Notes: generated by a model from the letters alone, not told the origin. A DNA stretch of 26,489 bases from a virus (IMGVR_UViG_3300032326_000102:1-26489); one strand, 5' to 3'; shown: positions 3,959 to 18,596, numbered from the stretch's first letter. Translations and numbers: made by a program.

Positions 3959-5347
3959 TTACTCTTTTACCACTTGGCATGATAAACTGCGGTATCCTAA
4001 TTCACACTGTGTAATCACAGCGTCACTGCCAGGGCTGGGTACAAATTCTACTTCTAATATGTAACGATAGTAGCCTGGCGGTGGTGTGTCAATAATGCTG
4101 GTAAACAGAGTATCAATTGGCTCTAATGTTACTGTGCCTGATGTTACTCCACTTACTGTTAAATTCATGTCATTGCCAGGTGTTGCACCACCTAATAAGT
4201 TTCCTGGAACTACCAGTGTATCACCTACGTCGTAACCTTCACCGCCTGATACAACTTTGATAGAAGTATTACTGATACTGTAAATGGTAGCACCAGTTGG
4301 GAACTGTGTTATTTCTAACGACAAGTTAGAACCTGAACCTGTAACTGTTGTTGGGTTAACTGTGTAAACTATTGGATATGTCACAGCAGAGGCTGCTTTG
4401 TTACCACTATATGCTAATGCTGTGTCAGATGGTACACTGTTTTCTGTTGGGTCCAATGTGGCAAAATTGTATGTGCGATACGCAACTGCTACTGGAGCAT
4501 CAAATATAAAGTCTGGATTGGCTGGGTCATTAGATGGAAAGCCAACATAACGATTAACAGCAACGTTATAAAACATTTGTGAAGTCAATGAAGCTTTGTA
4601 TGTAATTGTGTTCAGCACTTGTGCAGAAATAAACACACGGTCAGAAGCTGAGTTTACAGTTACACGTGCATCACCATCTGTTGAATTGTATCCACCAAAC
4701 AAACTTAGGCCTACAGTACCACCTGAGCCAGTTCCTGGATCTGGATATGGTGTGTTAGTTCTTGCAATAACATACGTTGATGTGCATTCAGCAACACCAA
4801 TAGGACTGTAAGTGCCATCATAAAGGCTAGGTGTTACACCGTTAACTTCAATGCGTGAGCCCAATGGAAATGGTGCAACGCCATCAGTGTAGTTGCCACC
4901 AATAGCAGTAGATGACACCGTTTGAGAAATTGACACACGCCAAGTTGAACCTGAACCTGAACCAGAAATGTTGCTTACAATCTTAGTGCCAGCGGCAACG
5001 CCTGACCCTGTAACATATTGACCAACACCAACGGTACCTGATGTTAAAGTGCCAATGGTCAGCACAAAACCAGCAATGCTTGAACCAGTGCTGGCAAATG
5101 TTTCAAATGTAAACTTCCAAGTGTTAGGATCTAATCTTTCTGACGTGCCTAATGGAATAGGTTCTACATATACAACCACTGGTGCAGTTGAAGTAAATGG
5201 CACACGGAAGTTGCCAGTTAGATAACCAGTTTCACTTACGCTGACACCAGAGAAGTTTTGTCCCAGTCCTGCTGGGCCACTTAGCACATAGTTTAACGCT
5301 TCAGCAATGCCATCACTGTCAGTACGTTCTACAGGATACTTTGCCAT
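3959..5347 (-). CDS. Virion/tail-associated protein of unknown function, 462 aa, with inserted β-modules
   Basis: I do not recognise the core family. The start ATG shares one base with the stop of the 809-aa gene (TAATG), so the two are translationally coupled. Residues 80-213 form a Gly/Ser/Thr-rich two-part module (GQYVTGSG, GSGSTW, then LYDGTY) that closely parallels residues 181-310 of the 809-aa protein. Residues 336-408 form a second module (GEGYDVGDTL, LLGGATPGND) that parallels residues 566-645 of the same neighbour. The intervening core (about 220-335 and 415-462) is β-rich and ends in a short LEVEFVPSPGSD stretch. No signal peptide. Position after the nozzle-like gene suggests a tail or head-tail component, but this is inference. 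Confidence 0.6.
   Translation of the reverse strand: MAKYPVERTDSDGIAEALNYVLSGPAGLGQNFSGVSVSETGYLTGNFRVPFTSTAPVVVYVEPIPLGTSERLDPNTWKFTFETFASTGSSIAGFVLTIGTLTSGTVGVGQYVTGSGVAAGTKIVSNISGSGSGSTWRVSISQTVSSTAIGGNYTDGVAPFPLGSRIEVNGVTPSLYDGTYSPIGVAECTSTYVIARTNTPYPDPGTGSGGTVGLSLFGGYNSTDGDARVTVNSASDRVFISAQVLNTITYKASLTSQMFYNVAVNRYVGFPSNDPANPDFIFDAPVAVAYRTYNFATLDPTENSVPSDTALAYSGNKAASAVTYPIVYTVNPTTVTGSGSNLSLEITQFPTGATIYSISNTSIKVVSGGEGYDVGDTLVVPGNLLGGATPGNDMNLTVSGVTSGTVTLEPIDTLFTSIIDTPPPGYYRYILEVEFVPSPGSDAVITQCELGYRSLSCQVVKE
4124..4342 (-). repeat. β-module 2, copy in the 462-aa protein
   Basis: Encodes about residues 336-408, with VTGSGS, a GEGYDVGDTL segment and LLGGATPGND. It is paralogous to 5842-6081 in the 809-aa gene, where the matching segments are VTGTGS, GSGYVVGNQI and NLGGATPAND. 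Gly/Thr-rich β modules of this type are common inserts in aquatic-phage virion proteins. Confidence 0.7.
4709..5110 (-). repeat. β-module 1 plus partner domain, copy in the 462-aa protein
   Basis: Encodes residues 80-213. The first half shares STGSSI.G, LTIGT, GTV..GQYV.G.G, ISG.GSGSTW and VSISQ with residues 181-256 of the 809-aa protein. The second half shares the YDG.Y core and a following Pro/Gly turn. A shorter relative of the first half is inserted in the adaptor protein. Confidence 0.75.
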
Positions 5348-7776
5348 TAACGGTCATCCTCAGTTTGTGTGTACTGCCATGTCACTGCTGTGCATAGCCA
5401 AATGTTTGAATCTGAACTGTTGCCAATTTCTAAACTGTTAACACGGAAAGCATTTTGGTTAATCTGTGTCCATGGATTGTCAGTGTTGGTTGCCATTGTG
5501 ATTGCAGTAGAAGCCGCTGGAGCTTGTCCAACTGAGTTGGCACCTTCAACTGTAACACTTACGTTACCAATACGTCCTGTATTAACTGCGGGGTCAATAG
5601 GTGTACCAACTGCAAAAATGTTAATAACTTCTGGCATGATACGATGCACTAACAGTTTGCCTGAATAGTCTTCTAGCATCTTAATGTTGTCACGACGGAA
5701 GTATGAAGTAATAGGCAACGTAACACCATTGGTGTCATCTAAGAAAAAGTATCCAACGTCCTTTTGTACAACTCGCACATCTTCATCACCGCGAGCGTAA
5801 ACAACTAAACGACTACCTGGATCGTATGTAAACGTTCCGTTGGCCAGTCCTGTTGGTGGTGCGTCAAAGCCTGTAATACCACCTGTGCCGTTAACTGATG
5901 TAATTGTAAACACGCAATCATTGGCTGGTGTAGCGCCACCTAAGTTAGTGCCTAATATTTTAATCTGATTGCCTACCACATAACCTGAACCTGCGGCTGT
6001 TATATCTCCACGTGCTGGATATGCTTTATAACGTGAGCCAACTTGTTGCACAGTAATACGTGCGCCAGAACCAGTGCCAGTTACGGCTTGCGTTGCACGG
6101 TTAGTAAAGTATTGGTTAGGTGAAGCTATCCAACGTGGACTTTCACACGCAAAGGTAGCGGAGTTAACATCACGTGGTGCGTTCCAAATATCTAAGTCAT
6201 AACGATAAGCCAACATCTTATTTGGCACACCATTTGTTGCTTCAGTAGTTGGATAGTAAATTTCAACTTGGTTCTTGTAAGTGTTGACTTGCATGAACAC
6301 ACGATCAACATACAGTGGATCTAACTGATCAAAGAACCATTGCTTAACACGCTGGTTACCAAGACCAGTAAAATCTTGACCATTGAATACCCAGATGTCA
6401 CGTGCGTCAATACCATACACTAACTTGTCTGTGTTTGCCCAGCAGTTGCTTGAAAGCAATCCACGACCTTGGTTGAACAATCGCACACCTAGGATAGGCG
6501 TTGTTGTGGTTGAGTAGTTGATTGGTGAAAACACCACAGTGTCCCAATATGAACATACGAAGAATTGTCCGTTACATGGAAACGCATCAAGTGCTCCACC
6601 ACGAAGCGGAACATCAAGCTGGTTGGCTACGTTTAACACAGTTGGCTCCCATGTTGCTGGTGCTTGGTTTTGTCCAAAGCGTTGTGACCATTGTACAGCA
6701 ACAGGATATTCTTTTACTTCTCCATCAAGTGTTGTTGCTGTCAAATTGCCAGCTACTAAAATGTTACCTACGTTTGGAGTATTGTATAATCTCATAAACT
6801 TGGCGTACACTGATTTCCAATTTGGGTCATAGTTCCAAGAATAGCGTGGAGCAACAGAACCACCACCTGGATAGGCTGCGCCAGGTGACGCTGTGTAATT
6901 GATGGTTGTCATTGTGCTTGACACAACTGTGTAGAAACCATCGTAAAAGTTATTGACTTCTGAAATACTGATTTGATCACCAGCTGAGTAAGGTGCTGTT
7001 TCATATGGACCACCTCTTACTGTTGTTGAACCTGCTGATTGACTAATGCTAACAGTCCATGTGCTACCTGAACCAGTGCCTGAAATGTTGTTTAAGATTC
7101 GTGTGCCAACAGTTATGCCAGTGCCACTTACATATTGACCAATTGCAACAGTACCAGCAGTGACTGTGCCAATAGTAAGTGTTGTGCCTGATATAGAACT
7201 GCCTGTACTGACAAAAGTGTTTTCTAATGTTATTTGTTGCACTGTTGGACTAACATAAGTGATAGTGTCAATGCCTACAGGAAACAAGTTTGAATACGCA
7301 ACCATCTGCGGATATTGCACACCTTCTTCTTCTGGCCAAAAGAAAGGAGGATTTTGTTCGTCATTAAAAATAGGCACTGTGCCTGACCAAGCTTCAGTAA
7401 TGTTCTGTGCTTGTGTATAAGTGCCAACTCCACCAGGTGGAGTAATTTCAGTCCAGTTTACAGCGGAACTGTTGGTCTCACCGTTTGATGCCCACCACTT
7501 ACCTTCGTTGGTTGCTACAATGAAATAAAAGTCATTGGTTACGCCAGGTATTGGTTGACGGAAACCACCTGAAATGTAAGTAGGTGTTCCTGGCACTCCA
7601 TCAGGTAATGTTGCTGATTCACCTGAAATAGCTCGTATGCCACGCACATCAGTTTCAATGTTTAGTCCATCGTTGTATTCATTTGGTCCTAATGCCGCAG
7701 ACGGAACGTCTGGCGTAAATGACATTTTAGCAAGTGGAATACGCACTTCATTCAATGCTTTTTTTGGTTGCCCCAT
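5347..7776 (-). CDS. Tail nozzle / β-propeller-like tail tubular protein, 809 aa
   Basis: The conserved core resembles podoviral nozzle or tail-tubular-B/P22 gp10-type proteins: an N-terminal strand region (1-170, with a DGLNIETDVRGIRAI segment), then repeated blade-like blocks about 310-550 (VAGNLTAT, VQWSQRF, DAFPCNGQFFVCSYWDTVVF, LVYGIDARDIWVFNGQDF, VNTYKNQVEIYYPTTEA), and a C-terminal β region (650-809). Two modules interrupt it: 181-310 after the N-terminal region and 566-645 near the end; both have paralogues in the next gene. The ATG at 7776 has AAGGA about ten bases upstream. It follows a terminator and a CTAAATA motif, so it probably starts its own transcript. The core assignment is from sequence pattern, not a search. 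Confidence 0.72.
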   Translation of the reverse strand: MGQPKKALNEVRIPLAKMSFTPDVPSAALGPNEYNDGLNIETDVRGIRAISGESATLPDGVPGTPTYISGGFRQPIPGVTNDFYFIVATNEGKWWASNGETNSSAVNWTEITPPGGVGTYTQAQNITEAWSGTVPIFNDEQNPPFFWPEEEGVQYPQMVAYSNLFPVGIDTITYVSPTVQQITLENTFVSTGSSISGTTLTIGTVTAGTVAIGQYVSGTGITVGTRILNNISGTGSGSTWTVSISQSAGSTTVRGGPYETAPYSAGDQISISEVNNFYDGFYTVVSSTMTTINYTASPGAAYPGGGSVAPRYSWNYDPNWKSVYAKFMRLYNTPNVGNILVAGNLTATTLDGEVKEYPVAVQWSQRFGQNQAPATWEPTVLNVANQLDVPLRGGALDAFPCNGQFFVCSYWDTVVFSPINYSTTTTPILGVRLFNQGRGLLSSNCWANTDKLVYGIDARDIWVFNGQDFTGLGNQRVKQWFFDQLDPLYVDRVFMQVNTYKNQVEIYYPTTEATNGVPNKMLAYRYDLDIWNAPRDVNSATFACESPRWIASPNQYFTNRATQAVTGTGSGARITVQQVGSRYKAYPARGDITAAGSGYVVGNQIKILGTNLGGATPANDCVFTITSVNGTGGITGFDAPPTGLANGTFTYDPGSRLVVYARGDEDVRVVQKDVGYFFLDDTNGVTLPITSYFRRDNIKMLEDYSGKLLVHRIMPEVINIFAVGTPIDPAVNTGRIGNVSVTVEGANSVGQAPAASTAITMATNTDNPWTQINQNAFRVNSLEIGNSSDSNIWLCTAVTWQYTQTEDDR
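5842..6081 (-). repeat. β-module 2, copy in the nozzle-like protein
   Basis: Encodes residues 566-645 of the 809-aa protein, with a VTGTGSGARITVQ start, GSGYVVGNQI and NLGGATPANDCVFTIT. It matches the module at 4124-4342. It interrupts the conserved propeller-like part near its C-terminal end. Confidence 0.7.
6847..7236 (-). repeat. β-module 1 plus partner domain, copy in the nozzle-like protein
   Basis: Encodes residues 181-310: STGSSISGTTLTIGT, GQYVSGTGITVGT, ISGTGSGSTWTVSISQS, then FYDGFY and a Pro/Gly-rich end. It has the same two-part order as 4709-5110 in the next gene, so the pair moved or duplicated as a unit. Confidence 0.75.
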
Positions 7777-8330: not shown

Positions 8331-8359
8331 ATTATAGCAAAGAGTAACGAAAGTGTCAA
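8331..8359 (-). promoter_or_regulatory. Consensus sigma70 promoter for the small membrane-protein operon
   Basis: Minus strand: -35 TTGACA (8359-8354), 17-base spacer, -10 TATAAT (8336-8331), both perfect consensus. The spacer contains ACTTTCGTTAC (8354-8344), an 11-mer also present in the promoter at 11105-11134. Expression by host RNA polymerase early in infection is the natural reading. Confidence 0.88.
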
Positions 8360-8383: not shown

Positions 8384-8881
8384 TTAAGATTCAAGTTGTG
8401 GTCCTAAGACATGCGTTTCTAATACTTCAGTTTGCATACGCAGTGATTCTCTTTGTTTTAATAATTTTAACGCCTTCTTACGCTGATGTTTTTGTGCTTT
8501 TTGTATTTTATTGTGTGCTATTGCTTTATGATTAATAATCCAACCTTTTAATGAAATATCAAATATAAATGCTAGATAATCTATTTTGCGAATACGATCG
8601 CATAATTGCAAACTAAAATGTTGACATGCTAAGTTAATGCACTCTTTCTGATGAATTACTTTGCGTATTGTCTCATTTTCAATTTTAAATGCTTCTGCTT
8701 TAGTATCATACGCACCTAGGATTATCTTGTTAAATTTAACACCGTTTAACATTAAATGTTTTACAAGTTCACTGGAACTTTGGTAATGAATGTCATCTTC
8801 TGGCAGACACTTACATGATCTTGATCCAATATAAAACGCATCTTTAGCAGTCATCATGTAAACATAATAATATTTGCTCAT
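8384..8881 (-). CDS. GIY-YIG nuclease, 165 aa
   Basis: The N-terminal domain carries the family signature: YVY (6-8) as the GIY element, FYIGSRSC (16-23) with YIG and the conserved Arg21, then D30..Y33 and SSS, a Glu-rich helix (AEAFKIENETIRK, 62-74; Glu70 likely catalytic) and CINLA with Asn83. These enzymes cut DNA with a single metal site. The rest (90-165) is very basic (KKALKLLKQRESLRMQ) and probably binds DNA. It overlaps the AT-hook-like gene by four bases (ATGA) and seems AT-richer than the virion genes. It could be a free-standing homing endonuclease, or work with the polymerase upstream in replication or host-DNA breakdown; sequence alone cannot separate these. Confidence 0.85.
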   Translation of the reverse strand: MSKYYYVYMMTAKDAFYIGSRSCKCLPEDDIHYQSSSELVKHLMLNGVKFNKIILGAYDTKAEAFKIENETIRKVIHQKECINLACQHFSLQLCDRIRKIDYLAFIFDISLKGWIINHKAIAHNKIQKAQKHQRKKALKLLKQRESLRMQTEVLETHVLGPQLES

Positions 8882-9030
8882 AACGCTTTAGATTCTTTCA
8901 AACGCAGTACTAGTTCATGTGCTTCACGTTTAACACGTTCTCTCCAACGCTTTTGGCGTTCAGCATTAGTCATTGCTTTACTATAAACTGTAGGGCGCCC
9001 CATTTTCTTTTTTGGTTTCTTGATTTCCAT
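8878..9030 (-). CDS. Small basic AT-hook-like DNA-binding protein, 50 aa
   Basis: A longer reading from 9099 would run inside the polymerase gene. The ATG at 9030 lies one base after the polymerase stop and has AGAGGAAA just upstream, so it is chosen. The protein begins MEIKKPKKKMGRP: a Lys-rich stretch with a GRP AT-hook core at 11-13. It continues with AMTNAERQKRWRERVKRE (19-36), a basic helix of a kind recurring in small phage proteins. It is tightly coupled to both neighbours. Likely role: binding DNA or nucleic acid alongside the polymerase and nuclease (inference). Confidence 0.7.
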   Translation of the reverse strand: MEIKKPKKKMGRPTVYSKAMTNAERQKRWRERVKREAHELVLRLKESKAL

Positions 9031-9031
9031 T

Positions 9032-10447
9032 TTATTTTCCTCTTGATAAATGCCAAGCCATTTCTTCTCTATGACGGCGGGCTCTTTCTGCTGTTTCATC
9101 TACTACTGGAACGGCTTCTGTCCAGGCATTGTGTGCAGTATGCACAAGTTGAATACCATCACCATAATCCATGCTTAATATACTATTAATGTTTGGCAAG
9201 TTAATTGCACGGCGTGTGCAAAAACCATCATGTACCCATAACAGTATTTCAGCATCTTTAACGTATTCCATTACATGTTTAATCATTCTTGCTTCAGCTT
9301 GCTGATATAAAAATGCTAGTAAACGTTTACGACTTAACTTGCCATTGTTTGATACTACTGGGTCAATTCTATAATTTGGTTCAATTTCTAGTACTGCATC
9401 ACAAATTTGTTTGCCAATTGCATCTTGCTCTGCAATAAACTCTACAACCCAAGGATGATTGCAAAATGCTTCTCTTGATCCTTTGTCGTAAATTACGCCA
9501 GCCAGTCCTTTGGTCTGTAACACATCATTTTCATAATAAGCATTGCTTTTACGAGCACCAAACCCAATTGCTGTTAGTGCTTGCTTAATGATGTTTAGTT
9601 TATGTTCATCAGATCCTGCTGTATCTACAAGTGTTTCTACTAATCTATTACGAACTGTGTGCTTGTCATTGATTAATTCCCTTGTGCAAATGGTGCCACT
9701 TGGTGTATCATATTTGCCTAAATCTTGAATCATTCTCAACATGTAAATTTGCCAAGCATAAACGGAACTGCGTAAGTCATAACTGTGATGTGTGCCTAAT
9801 GCCGCATGACGCACAACTGCTGGACAGTTTTGCAAATTGATACCACCATAATAAACACGTCCACTATCAGCTGGCTTGCGTAGTTGTGGTAATTTGGCCC
9901 ATTTATCATCAATTCTAAACTTTTCTGCCACTGCCATAATATTCATTGCACTCTTCTGAATATTCTTAACACGGCATTGCAATATAAATGCACCAATACT
10001 GTCAAGATCAATAGGAGTCCAATCATAAGCATCAGCTATTGCTTCTACTTGTGATTGAATTGCTTCAATCCACATTTCTTCCCAATCCATTTCAAATAGT
10101 ACCTTTACTTTTGTTAATGAGCCTAGTTTGCCTAAGGCTTTGTTTTTTGATCCTTTAACTCTGATTTCAATTAGTGGAAATTGCTTGTGCAAAATAGGCC
10201 ACCAATATTGCTCTTTGCCTCTTGATCCAAAACGACCACACGCTACATTAAGTTTTTCTGTGCTTACTGGATACAAATCTAACTTAACATCCATTGGATC
10301 ACGCAACTTGTAATTTGCGGCTATTTCTTTTATTACTGCACGACGATAACGATCTGCTATCAAATGCGGATCACTGCGTAAATTTGGAAAGCTCAACTTA
10401 ATGAATTGAGCTACCAAATCTACATTACAAATTTGATCTAAGTCCAC
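9032..10447 (-). CDS. Divergent family-A-like polymerase (DNA polymerase / single-subunit RNA polymerase palm), 471 aa
   Basis: The start is GTG with AAGGAG seven bases upstream. Three palm/finger motifs occur in family-A order. Motif A: HSYDLRSSVYAWQ with Asp224, preceded by INLQNCP (203-209), like NLQNIP of DNA polymerase I. Motif B: IKQALTAIGFG (287-297) with Lys288 and Phe296-Gly297, like K(x)6-8(F/Y)G. Then YQQAEARMIKHVM (381-393) and motif C: LLWVHDGF (402-409) with His406-Asp407. Motif spacing (about 64 and 119 residues) fits DNA polymerase I better than T7 RNA polymerase, yet HDGF is nearer RNA-polymerase HDSF than HDE. No 3'-5' exonuclease motif is visible and 471 aa is short for either family. 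It may be replicative, or transcribe the virion genes. Its stop is one base from the next gene. Confidence 0.65.
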   Translation of the reverse strand: MDLDQICNVDLVAQFIKLSFPNLRSDPHLIADRYRRAVIKEIAANYKLRDPMDVKLDLYPVSTEKLNVACGRFGSRGKEQYWWPILHKQFPLIEIRVKGSKNKALGKLGSLTKVKVLFEMDWEEMWIEAIQSQVEAIADAYDWTPIDLDSIGAFILQCRVKNIQKSAMNIMAVAEKFRIDDKWAKLPQLRKPADSGRVYYGGINLQNCPAVVRHAALGTHHSYDLRSSVYAWQIYMLRMIQDLGKYDTPSGTICTRELINDKHTVRNRLVETLVDTAGSDEHKLNIIKQALTAIGFGARKSNAYYENDVLQTKGLAGVIYDKGSREAFCNHPWVVEFIAEQDAIGKQICDAVLEIEPNYRIDPVVSNNGKLSRKRLLAFLYQQAEARMIKHVMEYVKDAEILLWVHDGFCTRRAINLPNINSILSMDYGDGIQLVHTAHNAWTEAVPVVDETAERARRHREEMAWHLSRGK

Positions 10448-10486
10448 GAAGGGGCTCCTTATTAACTTCTTACTTCAACTACTCTA

Positions 10487-10510
10487 AGCAATGCCATAGG
10501 TGGCATTGCT
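10487..10510 (-). other. Perfect hairpin in the polymerase leader
   Basis: A 10-bp perfect inverted repeat, AGCAATGCCA / TGGCATTGCT, around a 4-base loop, lies 40 bases before the GTG start of the polymerase gene. No U-run follows, so it is not a standard terminator. It could be an attenuator, an RNase III site or an mRNA-stabilising 5' end. The Shine-Dalgarno itself sits in a small AAGG/CCTT hairpin near 10451-10462. Confidence 0.7.
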
Positions 10511-10522
10511 ATTACTTCAACA

Positions 10523-10551
10523 ATTATACTATTAGCCTCACGACTGAACAA
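10523..10551 (-). promoter_or_regulatory. Possible promoter for the polymerase cassette
   Basis: Minus strand -10 TATAAT (10528-10523), with only a weak -35 (TTGTTC, 17 bases upstream). One copy of the 12-mer TCAGTCGTGAGG (10547-10536) overlaps the spacer, suggesting activator or repressor control. Transcription from here would place the 10487-10510 hairpin at the start of the mRNA. Confidence 0.45.
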
Positions 10552-10580
10552 TATTGCTGACCGCCAAACCTCACGACTGA
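10536..10580 (-). repeat. Two direct copies of a 12-mer, 33 bases apart
   Basis: Minus-strand TCAGTCGTGAGG occurs exactly at 10547-10536 and 10580-10569. The 33-base offset is about three helical turns, placing both on one DNA face. A CAATATTG palindrome lies between them (10549-10556). One copy abuts the stop of the 158-aa gene. This looks like a paired protein-binding site; an iteron-like origin function is also possible. Confidence 0.6.
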
Positions 10581-11471: not shown

Positions 11472-11678
11472 ATGAGCACATTCTACAAAGAACAAGTGGC
11501 CAAGGCCCACATAATGATCACCATGTATCTAAATGACGCACTGGCCCACCCTGAGTGCAAAGGTGCTTACCAAGCGATCCAAGTTATGAAGAACTGTGTG
11601 GAGGATGCGTACAGTCAAATACTAGGAGGTGAAGGCTTTTTAGTAGACCTTGACTTTGAAGAAGATGATGACAATTAA
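11472..11678 (+). CDS. Small acidic protein, 68 aa, the only plus-strand gene
   Basis: Not recognised. Mostly helical (KEQVAKAHIMITMYLNDALAHPECKGAYQAIQ in short), ending in a strongly acidic FLVDLDFEEDDDN. The ATG at 11472 has only AAGAG one base upstream; ATG 11514 (residue 15) has AAGG eight bases upstream and could be the true start, giving 54 aa. It faces against all other genes, follows its own promoter and long leader, and ends in the bidirectional terminator. A small acidic early protein could bind or mimic nucleic-acid partners of a host protein, but this is speculation. Confidence 0.65.
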   Translation: MSTFYKEQVAKAHIMITMYLNDALAHPECKGAYQAIQVMKNCVEDAYSQILGGEGFLVDLDFEEDDDN

Positions 11679-11720: not shown

Positions 11721-11747
11721 AAAAAGCACCCTAAAAAGGTGCTTTTT
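11721..11747. terminator. Bidirectional Rho-independent terminator
   Basis: Perfect 10-bp stem AAAAAGCACC / GGTGCTTTTT around a 7-base loop, with a U-run on either strand. It separates the convergent 68-aa gene (plus) and the 256/99-aa genes (minus). A small palindrome (GCGGTACCGC) lies just left at 11702-11711. The remaining gap to 11794 shows nothing else. Confidence 0.93.
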
Positions 11748-11794
11748 CTATTTTTGCCTGTTTTACGCCTGATCAGTACCTACCCCCTTAGGCG

Positions 11795-12094
11795 TCAATA
11801 ATCAGATGTAAGTTCTTCAATAAATCTACCACCACTTAATCTTATAACTGTAAATTCAGCGGTATTGAACCTTTCATTCAAACGTTCAGCCAAGTTGAAT
11901 GCATGACCTGGCTCAGGAAAACTTACTTTGTTGTACTTGCTGTTAGGATATCGTTTGGTCATATCACGGCGGCGAATCTTGATAGGTTTACCTTTGTAGT
12001 ACACTGAGTAAACTGCATCTGCTTCGCACACTTCAAACATCATTCCTGATGGTTCTAGTTCATCCAATAGCACTTTTGGCTTTGGTCTCGCCAT
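11795..12094 (-). CDS. Small basic protein of unknown function, 99 aa
   Basis: Not recognised. Starts MARPKPK, with a basic KGKPIKIRRRDMTKRYP segment at about 34-50 and a probable α/β C-terminal part (FNLAERLNERFNTAEFTVIRL). The ATG at 12094 has a strong AGGAGG nine bases upstream and the gene overlaps the end of the double-HTH gene by 35 bases, so the two are likely coupled and may act together. Nucleic-acid binding is possible from charge. Last gene before the bidirectional terminator. Confidence 0.7.
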   Translation of the reverse strand: MARPKPKVLLDELEPSGMMFEVCEADAVYSVYYKGKPIKIRRRDMTKRYPNSKYNKVSFPEPGHAFNLAERLNERFNTAEFTVIRLSGGRFIEELTSDY

Positions 12095-12830
12095 TATTCT
12101 TTCCTCCTCTTGATTGCCCTACACGCCCAGCCCATTTACTTACAGTAGCTCTTGTTGTGTTGTGTTTTACTGCTATTTCCATAAATGTCATTTCACCAAT
12201 AATAATATCTTGGATCAATGCTTCTCGCACACTGTCATCCAACTTGCTTACTGTTGTTAACGCAGGTAAATTGTTTTCCCACTTTTGCTTAACGTATGAA
12301 ATTGCTTGTGGTTCAACATTAAACTCATGTGCTAAACTTACAACACTGTCACCACGTTCAAAACGTTGATACAACAACTCATGGTCTAATCTTTTATTGC
12401 GTGGTCTTCCATCAACGTCCGCAGGATTGGCGTACACTGCTTCACCAGGAAACGCCCACCAAATCCACTGTGCGCCTGACTGCTTGAATGCACGAACCCA
12501 TGTCAATATTTCATCAGGCTCAGCTTCAATGGCCATGCCAATAAAAGATACCAAGCGACTGTTGCTGTTACCACGTTGTATACCTTTAGGCAAGTCAAAG
12601 AAACGAAACAGTGTTTTGCGGTTACCAGTGTCAGGTAATCTTGCTCCGTCACGTTCCCACAGTCCAGCTACAGCAATTGATTGAGGATGCAGTGAGCCTG
12701 CAGATATGCCAAGCTCTTTGCCTTTGCCTATATCTAAAGCACGAAGGAGCCAGGCTCTTGGGGAACCTGCTCCTGTGTTAAGACCAACTTCAACGTTAGT
12801 CTTAGTGTTGATCCAAATGTTTTCTTTCAT
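12060..12830 (-). CDS. Double helix-turn-helix DNA-binding protein with unknown N-terminal domain, 256 aa
   Basis: Residues 1-135 form a Trp/Gly-rich domain I do not recognise (SPRAWLLRALDIGKGKELG, WIWWAFPGEAVYANP). A GRPRNKR AT-hook-like linker (141-147) leads to two helix-turn-helix units: 148-183 (VVSLAHEFNVEPQAISYVKQKW) and 199-235 (TFMEIAVKHNTTRATVSKW). The tail is basic. Tandem HTH suggests sequence-specific DNA binding, as a regulator or a small-terminase-like packaging factor; its place far from TerL favours a regulator. There is no Shine-Dalgarno before the ATG at 12830; TATAGT and TATAAT lie immediately upstream, so a short-leader or leaderless mRNA is possible. The 99-aa gene overlaps its end. 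Confidence 0.65.
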   Translation of the reverse strand: MKENIWINTKTNVEVGLNTGAGSPRAWLLRALDIGKGKELGISAGSLHPQSIAVAGLWERDGARLPDTGNRKTLFRFFDLPKGIQRGNSNSRLVSFIGMAIEAEPDEILTWVRAFKQSGAQWIWWAFPGEAVYANPADVDGRPRNKRLDHELLYQRFERGDSVVSLAHEFNVEPQAISYVKQKWENNLPALTTVSKLDDSVREALIQDIIIGEMTFMEIAVKHNTTRATVSKWAGRVGQSRGGKNNGETKAKSAIG

Positions 12831-13148: not shown

Positions 13149-15617
13149 TTATGCTCCAATTGGCACTAGCGTAATAAACATACTTGCGGCTGCTGGACCA
13201 AATGCTGTTGCCGCATAAGTTGGCAATGTAATTGATGTATCACTTACAGCATACATCAATTCCCAATAGTCAGTTGTGTTGGCACTGGATATCATGTTGT
13301 CCCAACCTGCAATGGTAGCCGCACCTTTAACCACAGTGACCTGACCCATTGAATTTGGAACATCAGTACCATTCTTACGCCACCAGAAATAACCAATATG
13401 GTCATTGCCGTTGTCTGCGTTGTCAAGTTGAACACTGAACTGTAGTTTATACATACCAGCCGCACCAGGAATAATACGACTTGTGCTACCAACAGTTGCA
13501 ATGTTAGAAAAGTCTGTAATACCCAACGCAATTGGGTAAGCATAAGCAGTATTTGCTGCCACTGGCGTTACAGTTGTGTTGTATTGCCACTGACCATACA
13601 CACGGTTGTAAACAAGGTTGTTGCCAACTACGTTTGCTGTAGTTGAACCACTTTGGAATGTAAACTGGTCTGAACGATAGTTTGCAGTTGCTGAACTGTG
13701 TTCAATAAATGTTACACGGTTTGTGTTAGTTAATGGCTGTCCTGTGACAAAGCCACGCACACGTAATGCAGCCGCACCAGTTACGTTTGTAAGGCCAATT
13801 GTACCTGCGGCTGCGGCTTGGTTACCTGCGGCTGGGATATACATACCCATTGCTGTGCCAGTTGTGTTTGAAAACACTGCCCAACCAGTACCATCAAATT
13901 TTCCTGCTGTTGAACCAGCAATAGTAACTTTTGAGTTTACACCAAATGGAGCGGCTGTTTGTGTTGCATAGTTAAACTGAACACGATTGCGTGTAAATGT
14001 TAAACCAGTTGTAGTTCCTGATGTAGTTGCAATTGGGGCACCACCTGGAGTTGCACTTAATGTAAATGTTGTAGTTGGGTTAGCACCTGCTGTAACATAA
14101 TACAAGTTACCATCAACATAACCTGGAAACGTCATTGTACCAGTTAGTGTTCCTGTTACACGCACTACGTCATTGCGGCGCACGTCAGCAGATGTGTTTG
14201 TAAACACACCAGATCCGCTTGACACAACAGAACCAATTGTTATTACCTGACGTAAAATGTAGTTGCCGCCTTGCACAGCGTTAGCAAGTGTAAATGCTGT
14301 TTCAACAGGTGTTTCAGTTGCCAAACTTTGAATTTGTAATGGGTGAAACGCTACTAAGCCGCCACCTTGATTTTGTGAAGCAACATAGTTTGTAAAGCCT
14401 GTAGTAGCATAACCAGTAAAGTTAACAGTTCCCATTACATCGCCTGAAGCTGAAGTAGTAGGAGTAGTGTTTGTTCCTTGTGCGCCACGTAATTGGAATG
14501 AAGCACTAGAGTTTGCCCCAGCTGCCGTATCACTTTGATAATATGTTAATGAACACTGAGCACCATAACCATTGTTGGTAGCATCACTGTTACTAAAAAT
14601 ATCAACACCGTTGTTAGCTGTTACTGAAGTTAACAACGCTGGAGGAACTACGAATGCGTCATTGCGTGTGTATTCAATAGCACCTTTAACACGACTAGCA
14701 TCTTCCATAACAGTTACAGCAGATATTACTCGTCCTGTTCCGTTTGGATCAAGAATAATATCACCGTTTGTGTTTGTGCTTGCAATAGTGTTGTCTGTTG
14801 CTACACCCACTGTTAGGTTACCAGCACTCACGCCAGCAAAGCTTGGTGTGTCGCCTGTGCCTACACTTTGACCAATAGCAACACTTACTTCTGTGCCGCT
14901 GATCTGTGCAACGCTTACGCCAGTGCCACTGCTGATCTTAACTGTATCAGTAGTAGAATCTGAACCAACCAAGTTTAGGTTGGCACCACCAGTTGTTGAA
15001 CTTGCGTTGAAATCATAAGTGGTGTTTGTGTCAGTTGCGGCAATAGTAATTGTGTTAGCATCTGTAGCTGTTACTGTTACATTTGTGCCATTGGCAAATT
15101 TAACACTGTCTGTTGTGCTATCTGAGCCAACTAAGTTAAAATTAGCACCACCAGTTGTGCTAGAAGCATCAACAGTGTAAGTTGTGCCAGGATGAGCATC
15201 TACATAAGCTTTGTCAGTTAAATCTGTTGAATTGGTTACGCCAGCTGGATTAACTGTGGCATACACAGTACCGCCATCAGCAAACGCAACAGCATCACCT
15301 GATGGTCCAACTACACCAGCTGTATATTCACCAGTCTGAATGCGAAGTGGATCTGTACTGCCGCGAGCCTGAATACTGATAAACTTACTGTTATCTATAT
15401 CATTGGTGCTAAACGTACTGACAACAGCTTGCGCTGAACTAGTTGCATTTGGTGATAATACACGAAGTCCAGATGCATTACCAGTTGTTGATTTGATAAC
15501 TGGACGATTGTCTGCATTGTTGTTTTCACTATATTCAATAGTGGTGCCTTGTGCGATGTCAATTTCTGTGCCACCAACTTCAAGGCCATTCTTTACTCTA
15601 AAATTCTTATCTGCCAT
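13149..15617 (-). CDS. Tail fibre / receptor-binding protein with C1q/TNF-like tip, 822 aa
   Basis: Domains in order: a short N-terminal segment; a 120-aa fibre repeat (21-140) that also occurs twice in the preceding fibre gene; two tandem 50-aa β repeats with ASSTTGGAN and LVGSDSTTD (147-200, 201-250); a LTVG.ATDNTI/GDIILDPNG strand block (268-296); a long β-rich middle including a RRNDVVRVTGTL / FPGYVDGNLYYVT module; and a C-terminal jelly-roll-like tip (about 720-822) with LQFSVQLDNADNG, YFWWRKNGTDVP and DYWELMYAVSD, the pattern of C1q/TNF-like trimeric phage tips. It probably binds the host surface. No chaperone or autoprotease motif seen. Confidence 0.8.
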   Translation of the reverse strand: MADKNFRVKNGLEVGGTEIDIAQGTTIEYSENNNADNRPVIKSTTGNASGLRVLSPNATSSAQAVVSTFSTNDIDNSKFISIQARGSTDPLRIQTGEYTAGVVGPSGDAVAFADGGTVYATVNPAGVTNSTDLTDKAYVDAHPGTTYTVDASSTTGGANFNLVGSDSTTDSVKFANGTNVTVTATDANTITIAATDTNTTYDFNASSTTGGANLNLVGSDSTTDTVKISSGTGVSVAQISGTEVSVAIGQSVGTGDTPSFAGVSAGNLTVGVATDNTIASTNTNGDIILDPNGTGRVISAVTVMEDASRVKGAIEYTRNDAFVVPPALLTSVTANNGVDIFSNSDATNNGYGAQCSLTYYQSDTAAGANSSASFQLRGAQGTNTTPTTSASGDVMGTVNFTGYATTGFTNYVASQNQGGGLVAFHPLQIQSLATETPVETAFTLANAVQGGNYILRQVITIGSVVSSGSGVFTNTSADVRRNDVVRVTGTLTGTMTFPGYVDGNLYYVTAGANPTTTFTLSATPGGAPIATTSGTTTGLTFTRNRVQFNYATQTAAPFGVNSKVTIAGSTAGKFDGTGWAVFSNTTGTAMGMYIPAAGNQAAAAGTIGLTNVTGAAALRVRGFVTGQPLTNTNRVTFIEHSSATANYRSDQFTFQSGSTTANVVGNNLVYNRVYGQWQYNTTVTPVAANTAYAYPIALGITDFSNIATVGSTSRIIPGAAGMYKLQFSVQLDNADNGNDHIGYFWWRKNGTDVPNSMGQVTVVKGAATIAGWDNMISSANTTDYWELMYAVSDTSITLPTYAATAFGPAAASMFITLVPIGA
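15198..15557 (-). repeat. 120-aa fibre repeat, copy 3 (in the 822-aa fibre)
   Basis: Encodes residues 21-140: AQGTTI.YSE.N, NRP, STTGN.SGLR, IQARGSTDPLRIQTGEY, GV..PSGD, TVYATVNPAG and a final K.YVD. It aligns end to end with both copies in the adjacent 580-aa gene. Confidence 0.85.
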
Positions 15618-15632
15618 GGTTCCCTATCCCCA

Positions 15633-17375
15633 TTAAATTACGATCAACTGTCTGCTGATCTTATATGTTGTTACAGCATTTACTGGTGTAACCTGTAACA
15701 GCACGTTACCACCTGAAATAGTAACTGCTATGTCTGTTAAACTTGCGTTGCTGAACATGTCAGCATAAACTGTTTGATATGCTGTTGTGCCATTGTGCAT
15801 TACAAGCACTTCCATTACTTGCACATCTGAACCACTGCTTACGCTGATCTGATATTTGGCACTGCGATATGTAGCAACTGCAAATGAATCTAGTGTTTGT
15901 AACGGTGTTGTTGCTGAAGTTATTAATTGTGTGCTGTCTAAGTAAACACGGTTGTCAATGTTAACTTGAGAAAATACAAATGAACCAGCTGTTAGATAAC
16001 CAACTGTGACCAAGTCTGTAGTTGCGCTTGGACCAGCTGGGTTGATACTTGCATGAGCCGCACCTGTACCATCAACGAATACTAAACTATTACCTGATGC
16101 ACCTAATACGCCAGCAGTATATTCGCCAGTAACAAAGCGCAATGGTGTTGTTGCATTACCACGTGCTTGTAAACTTAAGAACTTACCATTGTTGTTGTCA
16201 TTGGTATTAAATGAAGTTAAGTTAGCAACGGCTGCGGTTGTTGCATTTGGTGCTAATACACGGAAACCAGAACTGTTACCACTTGTGCTCTGAACAGCTG
16301 GACGATTTAGACGGTCATTGTTTTCATCATACAAGAATGTAGTAGCTTGTGCCAAGTTGTAGTCACCTGGGCTGGTAACGCTACCATCAGATTCTAATTT
16401 GAATGTAAATGAACCATTGACCAATTCACTGCCAGGAGTAGTAGCAATAGCATTGTCCACATATAACTTGGTTGCCAAGTCTGAATTAACTGTGGTACCA
16501 CTTGGGTTTACAGTTGCGTATGTTGTGCCACTGTCAATGAATGCAAGGCTTGTGCCGCTTGGATTCAATACACCACTGATGTATTTGCCTGTTTGAATAC
16601 GAAGTGGATCAGTGCCGCCGTTGTTGGCTTGAATGTTAATGAATGATCCATTGTCTAAGTCACTTGAACTAAACGCTGAAATAACACCACGTGAACTGCT
16701 TGAAGTATTTGGTCCAATTGCTCGCATACCAGATGTGTTACCTGTTGTGCTTTGAAAGTTTGGACGATTAAAACGGCTATTAGCTTCACTGAAAGCTATT
16801 GTTGTGCCTTGCGCTAGTGTAACAGTGTCACCATCAACAGTTAAGTCGTTATTAACTGTAGTAGTTCCAGTGTCTTCACCAATGCTTAGTGTAGTAGCGT
16901 TTCTAAATGCAAACACTGTTGTAGGAGCATTTAGTAAATTGAATGTACCAGTAGTGTCAGTGTATAGTGTATCAATGCCTGCTAATTTAATATCACCACT
17001 GGTGCTACCTAAACGCAATTCACCACTTGTTGTTGTAATTGTTTGATTGTCAGCTACAGCAATAGTAATGTTGCCAAAGTCAGCTGACTCTGCTACCAAC
17101 GCATTGTTGATAGTAGTTGTGCCTGAACCAGCACCAATGTTAACTGCGGTTGCCGCAAGACCTAAATTAATTGTTGTTGCGTTAGCTGGAAAAATATTGC
17201 CAGTTGTAGCAGTGGTTAAAATGTTGCCACTTAGGACTATCAAATCACCGCGGACTACTACGTTACCACTGCTATCTGGAATAGGTGTGGCCGCACCACC
17301 ATACAAACTTGTTGAGTTAGTAGAGCTTGTATTTTGTTGTGTTACTGTGCCATATAAACTTGAAGAACTTGTCAT
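15633..17375 (-). CDS. Tail fibre protein with two internal fibre repeats, 580 aa
   Basis: N-terminal Ser/Thr-rich segment (1-60), strand-rich region with short TTIN/TTTINN/LSIGEDTG hexapeptide-like turns (66-180), fibre repeat copies 1 (187-307) and 2 (341-461), and a C-terminal globular β domain (about 470-580, VYLDSTQLI, YRSAKYQISVSSGSDVQVMEVLVMHNG) of a type common at the end of aquatic-phage structural proteins. Ends 16 bases before the 822-aa fibre, which begins with the same repeat, so the two probably arose from one another and may form different parts of one fibre. Its N-terminus would be the side attached to the tail. Confidence 0.78.
   Translation of the reverse strand: MTSSSSLYGTVTQQNTSSTNSTSLYGGAATPIPDSSGNVVVRGDLIVLSGNILTTATTGNIFPANATTINLGLAATAVNIGAGSGTTTINNALVAESADFGNITIAVADNQTITTTSGELRLGSTSGDIKLAGIDTLYTDTTGTFNLLNAPTTVFAFRNATTLSIGEDTGTTTVNNDLTVDGDTVTLAQGTTIAFSEANSRFNRPNFQSTTGNTSGMRAIGPNTSSSSRGVISAFSSSDLDNGSFINIQANNGGTDPLRIQTGKYISGVLNPSGTSLAFIDSGTTYATVNPSGTTVNSDLATKLYVDNAIATTPGSELVNGSFTFKLESDGSVTSPGDYNLAQATTFLYDENNDRLNRPAVQSTSGNSSGFRVLAPNATTAAVANLTSFNTNDNNNGKFLSLQARGNATTPLRFVTGEYTAGVLGASGNSLVFVDGTGAAHASINPAGPSATTDLVTVGYLTAGSFVFSQVNIDNRVYLDSTQLITSATTPLQTLDSFAVATYRSAKYQISVSSGSDVQVMEVLVMHNGTTAYQTVYADMFSNASLTDIAVTISGGNVLLQVTPVNAVTTYKISRQLIVI
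15993..16355 (-). repeat. 120-aa fibre repeat, copy 2
   Basis: Encodes residues 341-461 of the 580-aa fibre: AQATTFLYDENN, NRPAVQSTSGN, NGKFLSLQARGN, LRFVTGEYTAGVL. The most diverged of the three copies: TTPLRFVTGE replaces TDPLRIQTG(E/K). Confidence 0.85.
16455..16817 (-). repeat. 120-aa fibre repeat, copy 1
   Basis: Encodes residues 187-307 of the 580-aa fibre: AQGTTIAFSEANS, NRPNFQSTTGN, TDPLRIQTGKY, GTTYATVNPSG, KLYVD. It is closer to copy 3 in the next gene than to copy 2 beside it in parts such as TDPLRIQTG and TYATVNP. Confidence 0.85.
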
Positions 17376-17387
17376 TATCCGCTGTCC

Positions 17388-18596
17388 TTATTTGATGTTG
17401 TATTGGCGATATTGTCTTGGTTGCCATACACTTGTCAAACGAGTGTGACCACCTGACCACTTACCAAGGTTATTTTGATCCTCAACAGTATTCATAGCTG
17501 CCTGGAATTTCATTTCATACACTTGGGCATCAGTTTCATTGTGACGCTTGATGTAATATTCGCGTAATGTAGAATATACATAACCTTCTGGCCATGTTTG
17601 TAAGACTGCGTTGTTTTGTACTGTTAGGCCAGTTTGTGTGATACCTGTAACAGTACCGCCATCTGGACCTGTGCCACCAGTTGTAGTTGCTGTAATGCTT
17701 GTTGGGCTAACAATGCTAGTTACAGTTGTAACGCCACCTGTACCAAATGATCCAACACCATCTGTTGCGTAAATTGTATCGCCAACTTGTAAGTCACCTA
17801 CGCTAGTCATACCACCTACACCAAATGTCCACGGACCTGTGCCAGTAATGCCACTCACGCTACCAGTAGCAGAGATAACTTCATCTTCTAATGGTGCGAA
17901 CAACAGTGGCCATGCTTTGTAATAATACATGTTGATCAAGTCACCTTCAGCAACATATGGCAAGAATTGATACTTGTCATATACTTCAGAGAACTTACCA
18001 CGGATAACTGCTGGTACGTTAACAGGTTGTAGATACAACTGTGCAATCATACCTTGTGTAATAATATCACGATCACCAATGCGGTCATACACAATCCAAG
18101 GACCTGTCTGACTTGATTGCTGACCAGTTGTAGAAAATACTAATGTGCCACTTACTGTGCCTGTGTTAGCAAGATTCAATGTAATAACACTGCCTATGCC
18201 ACCAGAGCCAGAAATGTTTGTAATTGATGCACCAATAGCAATGCCTGTTCCTGTTACTAACATACCGTTTGTAAGAGTCTGACCAGGAACAGATGTTAAT
18301 GTAATAGTTGTTTGGCCACTTGTGCCAGATGCAGTTGCTTGTGTTGTAACTTGTTGACCTTGTTTGAAAAACAAGATTGGTTTGTTCATGTCGCCTGGAA
18401 TAGGAATGCGACCGTTCTGATCAGCAATACCAATGTTCTCTGGTGCATATGGGTCTGAACGTAATGCTGGTAGTTCAATGTTACGCATGGACATCTCAGC
18501 CATGAAGATACACTGTTTAATTTCTGCGTCATTTGTGCTACCAGTAAAGTCTTTGATAAACTCTACTAAGGCGTCACCAGTTGGTATTGTAAACAT
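17388..18596 (-). CDS. Head-tail adaptor (SU10-adaptor-like) with two β-module insertions, 402 aa
   Basis: The core splits into three pieces: 1-80 (helical start, MAEMSMRNIELPALRSDPY, IPIPGDMNKPILFF), 161-240 (VYDRIGDRDI, LPYVAEGDLINMYYYKAWPLLF) and 326-402 (WPEGYVYSTLREYYIKRHNETDAQVYEMKFQ in short, ending in a polar tail). This pattern fits phage adaptor proteins that dock below the portal and join it to the nozzle; without the insertions it would be near 237 aa, a usual size. Insertion 1 (81-160: SGTSGQTTITL, MLVTGTGI, ISGSGG) is related to β-module 1 of the nozzle-like protein. Insertion 2 (241-325: GPWTFGVGGM, GDTIYATDG, TGGTGPDGG) is a different β module. The ATG at 18596 is three bases after the previous stop. 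Confidence 0.7.
   Translation of the reverse strand: MFTIPTGDALVEFIKDFTGSTNDAEIKQCIFMAEMSMRNIELPALRSDPYAPENIGIADQNGRIPIPGDMNKPILFFKQGQQVTTQATASGTSGQTTITLTSVPGQTLTNGMLVTGTGIAIGASITNISGSGGIGSVITLNLANTGTVSGTLVFSTTGQQSSQTGPWIVYDRIGDRDIITQGMIAQLYLQPVNVPAVIRGKFSEVYDKYQFLPYVAEGDLINMYYYKAWPLLFAPLEDEVISATGSVSGITGTGPWTFGVGGMTSVGDLQVGDTIYATDGVGSFGTGGVTTVTSIVSPTSITATTTGGTGPDGGTVTGITQTGLTVQNNAVLQTWPEGYVYSTLREYYIKRHNETDAQVYEMKFQAAMNTVEDQNNLGKWSGGHTRLTSVWQPRQYRQYNIK

Follow-up and report, generated by a model that had tools for sequence, protein, structure and literature searches.

What does a short, divergent polymerase do in a phage whose genome places an AT-hook-like gene and a GIY-YIG nuclease gene directly behind it, and do the three genes belong together? 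We addressed this question in a ~26.5-kb genome fragment of a small freshwater bacteriophage (IMGVR_UViG_3300032326_000102:1-26489; the window, that is, the whole 26,489-nt stretch of DNA analysed). The zero or near-zero spacing described in the original prediction was confirmed for three ORFs on the minus strand (Table 1), with a 1-nt gap after the first and an ATGA overlap between the stop of the second and the start of the third. The polymerase ORF has a GTG start, with an AAGGAG ribosome site ahead of it, and ends with TAA at 9034-9032. The ATG at 9030 adjoins this stop and has its own AAGAGGA site; hence, the second gene, encoding a basic GRP-containing protein, more likely comprises 50 aa (9030-8878) than the 73 aa of the mechanical ORF from 9099. 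A sigma-70 consensus promoter precedes the next gene block and a second strong sigma-70-like promoter stands before 11057; both flanking gene sets can therefore be transcribed by host RNA polymerase. The 11795 gene and the sole clear plus-strand gene (11472-11678) are separated by a bidirectional terminator, a perfect 10-bp hairpin with an A-run and a T-run (11721-11747).

Table 1. Features of the polymerase locus, with positions counted from the first letter of the window.
Feature	Position	Strand	Evidence
Upstream gene, 158 aa	10581..11057	-	C-terminal tail resembles a 133-aa gene at the equivalent place in L006
Polymerase control region, 133 bp: promoter, paired direct repeats, 5'-leader hairpin	10448..10580	-	Layout kept before the gene in L002, L006/L007, L003 and L004
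Direct repeat copy 1, TCAGTCGTGAGG	10569..10580	-	Counterparts in relatives
-35-like TTGTTC, 17 bp before the -10 box	10546..10551	-	TTGACG at the equivalent place in L006
Direct repeat copy 2, TCAGTCGTGAGG, at the -35 region and spacer	10536..10547	-	Sequence
-10 box TATAAT	10523..10528	-	5/5 aligned relatives
Perfect 10-bp hairpin, 4-nt loop, near the predicted transcript 5' end	10487..10510	-	Sequence
Divergent family-A-like (TV-Pol-type) polymerase, 471 aa	9032..10447	-	ORF, relatives, AlphaFold, Foldseek, HMM
R197 codon, GRxY template-strand hairpin motif	9857..9859	-	23/23 members
D224 codon, motif A metal ligand	9776..9778	-	23/23 members
K288 codon, motif B fingers, K-x7-[F/Y]-G-A (F296-G297-A298)	9584..9586	-	23/23 members
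D407 codon, motif C metal ligand, HDG/HDA/HDC	9227..9229	-	23/23 members
Small basic GRP (AT-hook-like) protein, 50 aa if from ATG 9030	8878..9030	-	PHROG 6334/10506, E about 1e-5
GIY-YIG nuclease, Seg/F-LimXI-like homing endonuclease, 165 aa	8384..8881	-	PHROG 314 homing endonuclease, 2.8e-11
Sigma-70 consensus promoter, TTGACA-17-TATAAT, extended -10, before the next gene block	8331..8359	-	12/12 match

As a single sequence, the 471-aa protein returned nothing credible from Pfam, NCBIfam, PHROGs or PDB sequences, and neither did a PDB profile search with the polymerase family. The family-A DNA polymerase profile PF00476 gave no match at E up to 1 for the window protein and up to 10 for four relatives, and was absent from the eight contigs searched; the T7-like RNA polymerase profile PF00940 matched neither the window protein nor the four relatives. 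Positive controls were recovered readily (T7 gp5 at 8e-48 to PF00476, T7 gp1 at 3e-109 to PF00940). We gathered relatives of the polymerase from viral contigs and bacterial genomes, and a 17-row alignment of them (A5) yielded a confident AlphaFold model (mean pLDDT 85.8). The predicted fold is the palm, fingers and thumb core of family-A DNA polymerases, with no exonuclease. Foldseek against the PDB matched it to T7 DNA polymerase, Klenow-type polymerases and Pol theta (E 2e-5 to 1e-3) and far more weakly to mitochondrial RNA polymerase (E about 0.05). The TM-scores of the PDB matches are moderate (about 0.3-0.4), as expected of a shared core with different appendages. Against BFVD, the top matches are the protein's own uncharacterised homologues and an uncharacterised phage protein; the next best include replication proteins of virophages and giant viruses (Zamilon, E 7e-8; Qinghai virophage, 5.5e-6), with ordinary phage Pol I ranking behind the virophage proteins (1.6e-5). 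The structural comparison with family-A and RNA polymerases proposed in the original prediction thus points to a family-A DNA polymerase core, RNA polymerase being the weaker match.

The catalytic motifs A, B and C originally reported in the protein are borne out by their conservation, scored over 23 aligned members (Table 1), with K288 invariant in A5 as well; a Q and an E ahead of motif C are also present in 23/23 members. It was likewise correct that the protein is short, lacks an exonuclease and has HDG (H406-D407-G408) instead of HDE as motif C. In the AlphaFold model, strands 183-192 and 198-201 form the GRxY beta-hairpin, and helices 148-157 and 161-175 precede it; these helices are placed from the model, without residue-by-residue superposition on the TV-Pol bi-helical thumb. 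From R197 to D407 the motifs are spaced by 27 (R-to-D), 64 (D-to-K) and 119 (K-to-D) residues. The corresponding distances are 37, 53 and 124 residues in E. coli Pol I and 112, 94 and 181 residues in T7 RNA polymerase, and so the spacing, as read from the sequence, is Pol I-like. In T7 RNA polymerase, sugar discrimination uses Y639, which aligns with F296. By motif alignment, the equivalent of Pol I E710 (D+5) is V229 and that of F762 (K+4) is T292. E710 and F762 are the sugar discriminators of Pol I and both are kept in CCPol (PMC7581432). As these residues are not conserved here, a preference for dNTPs or rNTPs cannot be read off the sequence.

To which polymerases is this family related? 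Against a background of about 350 frames, the A5 profile picked out two Polaromonas plasmid proteins (E 5e-19 and 4e-18), and both plasmids carry a resolvase-type recombinase gene. The window protein matches one of them by BLASTP at 2e-9, and hhalign aligns the clade with the Polaromonas group at 98% (E 3e-14). A search with the Polaromonas protein in 300 genomes of the host order gave no match. The protein links (2e-11) to MAP_030 of the Microcystis phage Ma-LMM01, for which a TV-Pol element has been reported (Iyer, Abhiman and Aravind 2008, PMC2579912). We infer from the transposase genes beside it that MAP_030 is the published Ma-LMM01 TV-Pol. By sequence and predicted structure, the nearest relatives outside the protein's own clade are TV-Pol-type polymerases, a group that includes the SCCmec primase-polymerase CCPol. 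The clade shares with TV-Pols (PMC2579912) a stand-alone, minimal family-A core of 400-600 aa that lacks nuclease domains, a conserved hairpin arginine, two palm aspartates and a fingers lysine, and occurrence in viruses and recombinase-bearing elements. It differs in having no adjoining D5-like helicase and no conserved arginine in the RxxxK of the fingers (the window protein has L at position 284, and of the 23 members L084 alone has R), in the form of motif B (K-x7-FGA) and motif C (HDG/HDA), and in occurring in tailed phages and Limnohabitans loci. MAP_030 likewise has no R at the RxxxK position. Tyrosine recombinases, a linkage trait of TV-Pols, lie near the bacterial members, and neither helicase nor recombinase was seen in the window or in G002, a related podophage contig. 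Because the arginine listed by Iyer et al. is absent, we place the clade next to TV-Pol and not inside it: it is a distinct, unnamed clade adjoining the TV-Pols of virophages, plasmids and integrative elements, and not a plain TV-Pol member.

Three other systems invite comparison. CCPol-MP and the PolA-SSB primases (PMC7581432, PMC10061031) are also exonuclease-less or truncated family-A polymerases of recombinase-bearing mobile elements, with a proposed role in starting DNA synthesis. However, CCPol keeps the E710 and F762 equivalents, belongs to Bacillota and is encoded in an operon with an OB-fold partner and a D5/COG3378 helicase, none of which is established here. The divPolA2 proteins of barbaviruses and ICP1-like phages (PMC11348598) resemble ours as orphan phage palms with a novel N-terminal part, no exonuclease, a variable neighbourhood and a GRMYxxG..N-like hairpin motif, but they have RxxxK and an FDE motif C, and their hosts also encode a regular PolB. 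We rejected membership in divPolA2 on the hhalign scores (13-46%, E 2e-3 to 2e-4), the HDG motif and the missing R. Finally, T7 DNA polymerase and Pol I (PF00476) provide the best PDB fold matches and a similar spacing of motifs A, B and C, while the protein here has no Pfam match, no exonuclease, no E710 and F762 equivalents, and HDG for HDE.

The 133-base region ahead of the polymerase was predicted to hold two 12-mers 33 bases apart, a -10 box and a 10-bp hairpin; all were confirmed, and the layout is conserved in relatives. In five contigs, 11-12-mers are paired 32-33 bp apart, the second overlapping the -35/-10 interval, and a palindrome follows. The sequence of the repeat varies by phage (TCAGTCGTGAGG, CTATAGTGATG, TCAGTAGTGGC), and the two copies covary, being identical in four contigs and slightly different from each other in L006/L007, as expected of a bound protein with two sites. 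At the hairpin position the palindrome has 8 bp in L002, is imperfect in L006 and is of another sequence in L003/L004. Compared with Markov shuffles of the whole window, identical 12-mer pairs within 60 bp (3 observed versus 0-1) and 10-bp hairpins (4 versus 0-2) are in excess, though neither the repeat pair nor the hairpin by itself is overwhelming statistically; it is the conservation of this arrangement before the polymerase of relatives that makes the region real. The two TCAGTCGTGAGG copies are the sole two sites in the window, and the exact repeat pair is limited to the polymerase upstream region in each contig. We therefore rejected a genome-wide phage promoter motif, the 12-mer being found twice only, before the polymerase. 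The simplest reading of the paired repeats is a putative operator, with an autoregulated polymerase gene as the best reading of the whole; the repeats may also be origin iterons.

We found polymerase homologues in both podophage and siphophage contigs. The window is collinear with G002 (36,440 bp), gene order being kept. Identities of 70-88% apply to terminase, portal, capsid and most other structural genes, falling to 42-56% for some minor proteins and a single tail protein. The polymerases of the window and G002 share just 44% identity, yet the figure is 80% with the polymerase of contig G001, whose tail genes are of siphophage type, and 77% with that of L006/L007. These identities indicate that the polymerase is swapped between phages together with its control region, as one module; in-situ swapping of phage polymerases has been described (PMC11348598). 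The window runs uninterrupted (11795-10447) across the junction of the two G002 ends, which suggests that G002 is a permuted and almost complete genome. Its 33 larger ORFs encode, by Pfam and PHROG, an SU10-type portal and capsid, a terminase, a holin, a DNA-binding protein, a ferritin-like protein, a 2OG oxygenase, and homing and other nucleases; no helicase, primase or other polymerase was recognised among them. Unannotated ORFs of the window could hide unrecognised replication genes.

Among bacteria, the polymerase gene occurs in 17/90 genomes of the Limnohabitans genus-level group, some with two or three copies, and in 1/300 genomes of the order; so scattered a distribution is typical of mobile elements. 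Its neighbours in Limnohabitans and related MAGs are DUF6641, directly beside it, and, close by, small and large tyrosine recombinases and DUF6876. In a 17-kb locus of Limnohabitans parvus (L021), tandem mobile-element parts surround the polymerase, with small and large tyrosine recombinases, DUF6641 and porins recurring two or three times. An 87.5-kb contig of Sphingomonas sp. Ag1 (L025/L026) carries inverted polymerase genes at both ends (99.7% over 1.8 kb), which would fit a linear element bounded by long inverted ends or may stem from assembly.

Overall, we suggest that this minimal family-A-type polymerase probably starts phage genome replication, as a host-transcribed, regulated and swappable module. 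The suggestion draws on homology, the predicted fold, the catalytic motifs, the swapping, the conserved control region and a G002 genome with no other recognised replication gene. Host RNA polymerase would transcribe the polymerase gene early, from its own sigma-70-like promoter, and a dedicated regulator, presumably a repressor, would bind the paired direct repeats, which might serve also as origin iterons; HTH proteins of the phage, such as that encoded at 12830-12060, are candidates for binding the region. By analogy with CCPol-MP, which primes de novo (PMC7581432), the polymerase would then prime and briefly extend DNA strands on the opened phage template, and the host replisome would take over elongation. 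Beside the polymerase, the window encodes no helicase and no certain single-strand-binding partner. Small beta-rich proteins with conserved N..W..I and ADS are encoded upstream of it in three contigs (L006:5220-5621, L010:6896-7216, L015:6719-7051), and an OB fold is suspected; the model of these OB-like candidates is poor (pLDDT 48.9) and the gene also occurs without the polymerase. The 158-aa gene product of the window has just the C-terminal tail in common with the L006 protein. The siphophage-like contig L002 encodes two AAA ATPases (PHROG 1250) downstream of the polymerase (11782-12585 and 13605-14507), one weakly clamp-loader-like; they could be helicase or loader partners.

Many small phages replicate wholly with host enzymes, and the polymerase might instead be an accessory enzyme of repair, recombination or counter-defence, dispensable for replication, with all DNA synthesis left to the host. 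That host-only replication is common among small phages speaks for this reading, as do the variable positions of the polymerase, apart from recognisable replication genes, and two contigs (L090/L091) collinear with L006/L007 in which an unrelated 221-aa gene stands in its place, making the enzyme replaceable or dispensable there. The 221-aa protein (L090:3607-4272, L091:2372-3037) has no family match and may be a functional substitute for the polymerase. Nevertheless, the polymerase is kept across podophages and siphophages with almost no other non-structural enzymes, under a dedicated conserved promoter with paired repeats, and its TV-Pol kin are replicative (PMC7581432, PMC2579912); we consider a purely accessory role unlikely.

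Another alternative, raised originally as the phage's own transcription enzyme, casts the protein as a single-subunit RNA polymerase of the T7 or N4 kind, serving transcription of phage genes or synthesis of RNA primers. T7 RNA polymerase likewise has HDxF around motif C and K-x8-G in motif B, the anti-ribonucleotide residues of Pol I are replaced (V229, T292), no other polymerase was found in relatives, and for the comparable orphan divPolA2 an RNA polymerase function has been suggested as possible (PMC11348598). On the other hand, the fold is DNA-polymerase-like and the motif spacing Pol I-like, PF00940 gave no match, mitochondrial RNA polymerases reached only E about 0.05, and T7 RNA polymerase aligned with the family profile by hhalign was not significant. 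Moreover, the repeated promoter motif is limited to the polymerase gene, and the flanking blocks have sigma-70-like promoters. We regard this function as quite improbable, and it keeps some standing because the sugar-discriminating residues are not conserved.

The AT-hook-like and GIY-YIG genes do not travel with the polymerase. Downstream of its polymerase, L004/G002 encodes a GRP protein homologue (L004:3231-3374), which makes the AT-hook gene part of the podophage backbone. The GIY-YIG protein matches homing endonucleases of the F-LimXI/Seg-like type by tblastn (5e-7) and its gene has the lowest GC of the neighbourhood (30.5%), which suggests that it is probably a homing-endonuclease passenger; it is absent beside the polymerase from all sequenced related loci, including collinear G002, a contig with other nucleases elsewhere in its genome. 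Thus, of the coupled cassette with its own control region that had been proposed, the control region stands and the three-gene coupling falls. A mobile three-gene replication or homing unit, suggested by the near-zero spacing and ATGA coupling and by bacterial polymerase homologues in integrase-bearing loci, is very hard to maintain: the same three-gene order was not found in relatives, the AT-hook gene is kept in the collinear podophage alone, the genes after the polymerase differ from phage to phage, and the polymerase occurs without the other two genes at several places, in unrelated phages and bacterial genomes, a distribution that the original prediction had itself named as grounds for rejection.

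TV-Pols were predicted to be primase-polymerases in 2008 (PMC2579912), and in the literature surveyed the SCCmec branch is the sole one tested. The clade described here offers small single-enzyme systems in tailed phages and cultured Limnohabitans, in which motifs free of the Pol I ribonucleotide-excluding residues are combined with a compact, swappable promoter/origin-like region. Such systems allow direct tests of how family-A polymerases acquire the ability to initiate chains. The isolated, unannotated 142-kb Desulfovibrio phage 7757 encodes a homologue of 767 aa, extended by further domains at both termini (L005:5128-7431), and is a cultured system for testing the enzyme.

Some virion genes of the window also share segments. 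Three virion proteins (5347-7776, 3959-5347 and 17388-18596) contain a similar Gly/Ser/Thr-rich insert of about 70-130 residues, 48% identical between two of them, and the G002 homologue of the first is enlarged to 1577 aa. The adjacent tail-fibre-like genes at 13149-15617 and 15633-17375 have a common 140-aa segment (56% identity), and part of the former is 64% identical to a tail gene of the siphophage-like G001.
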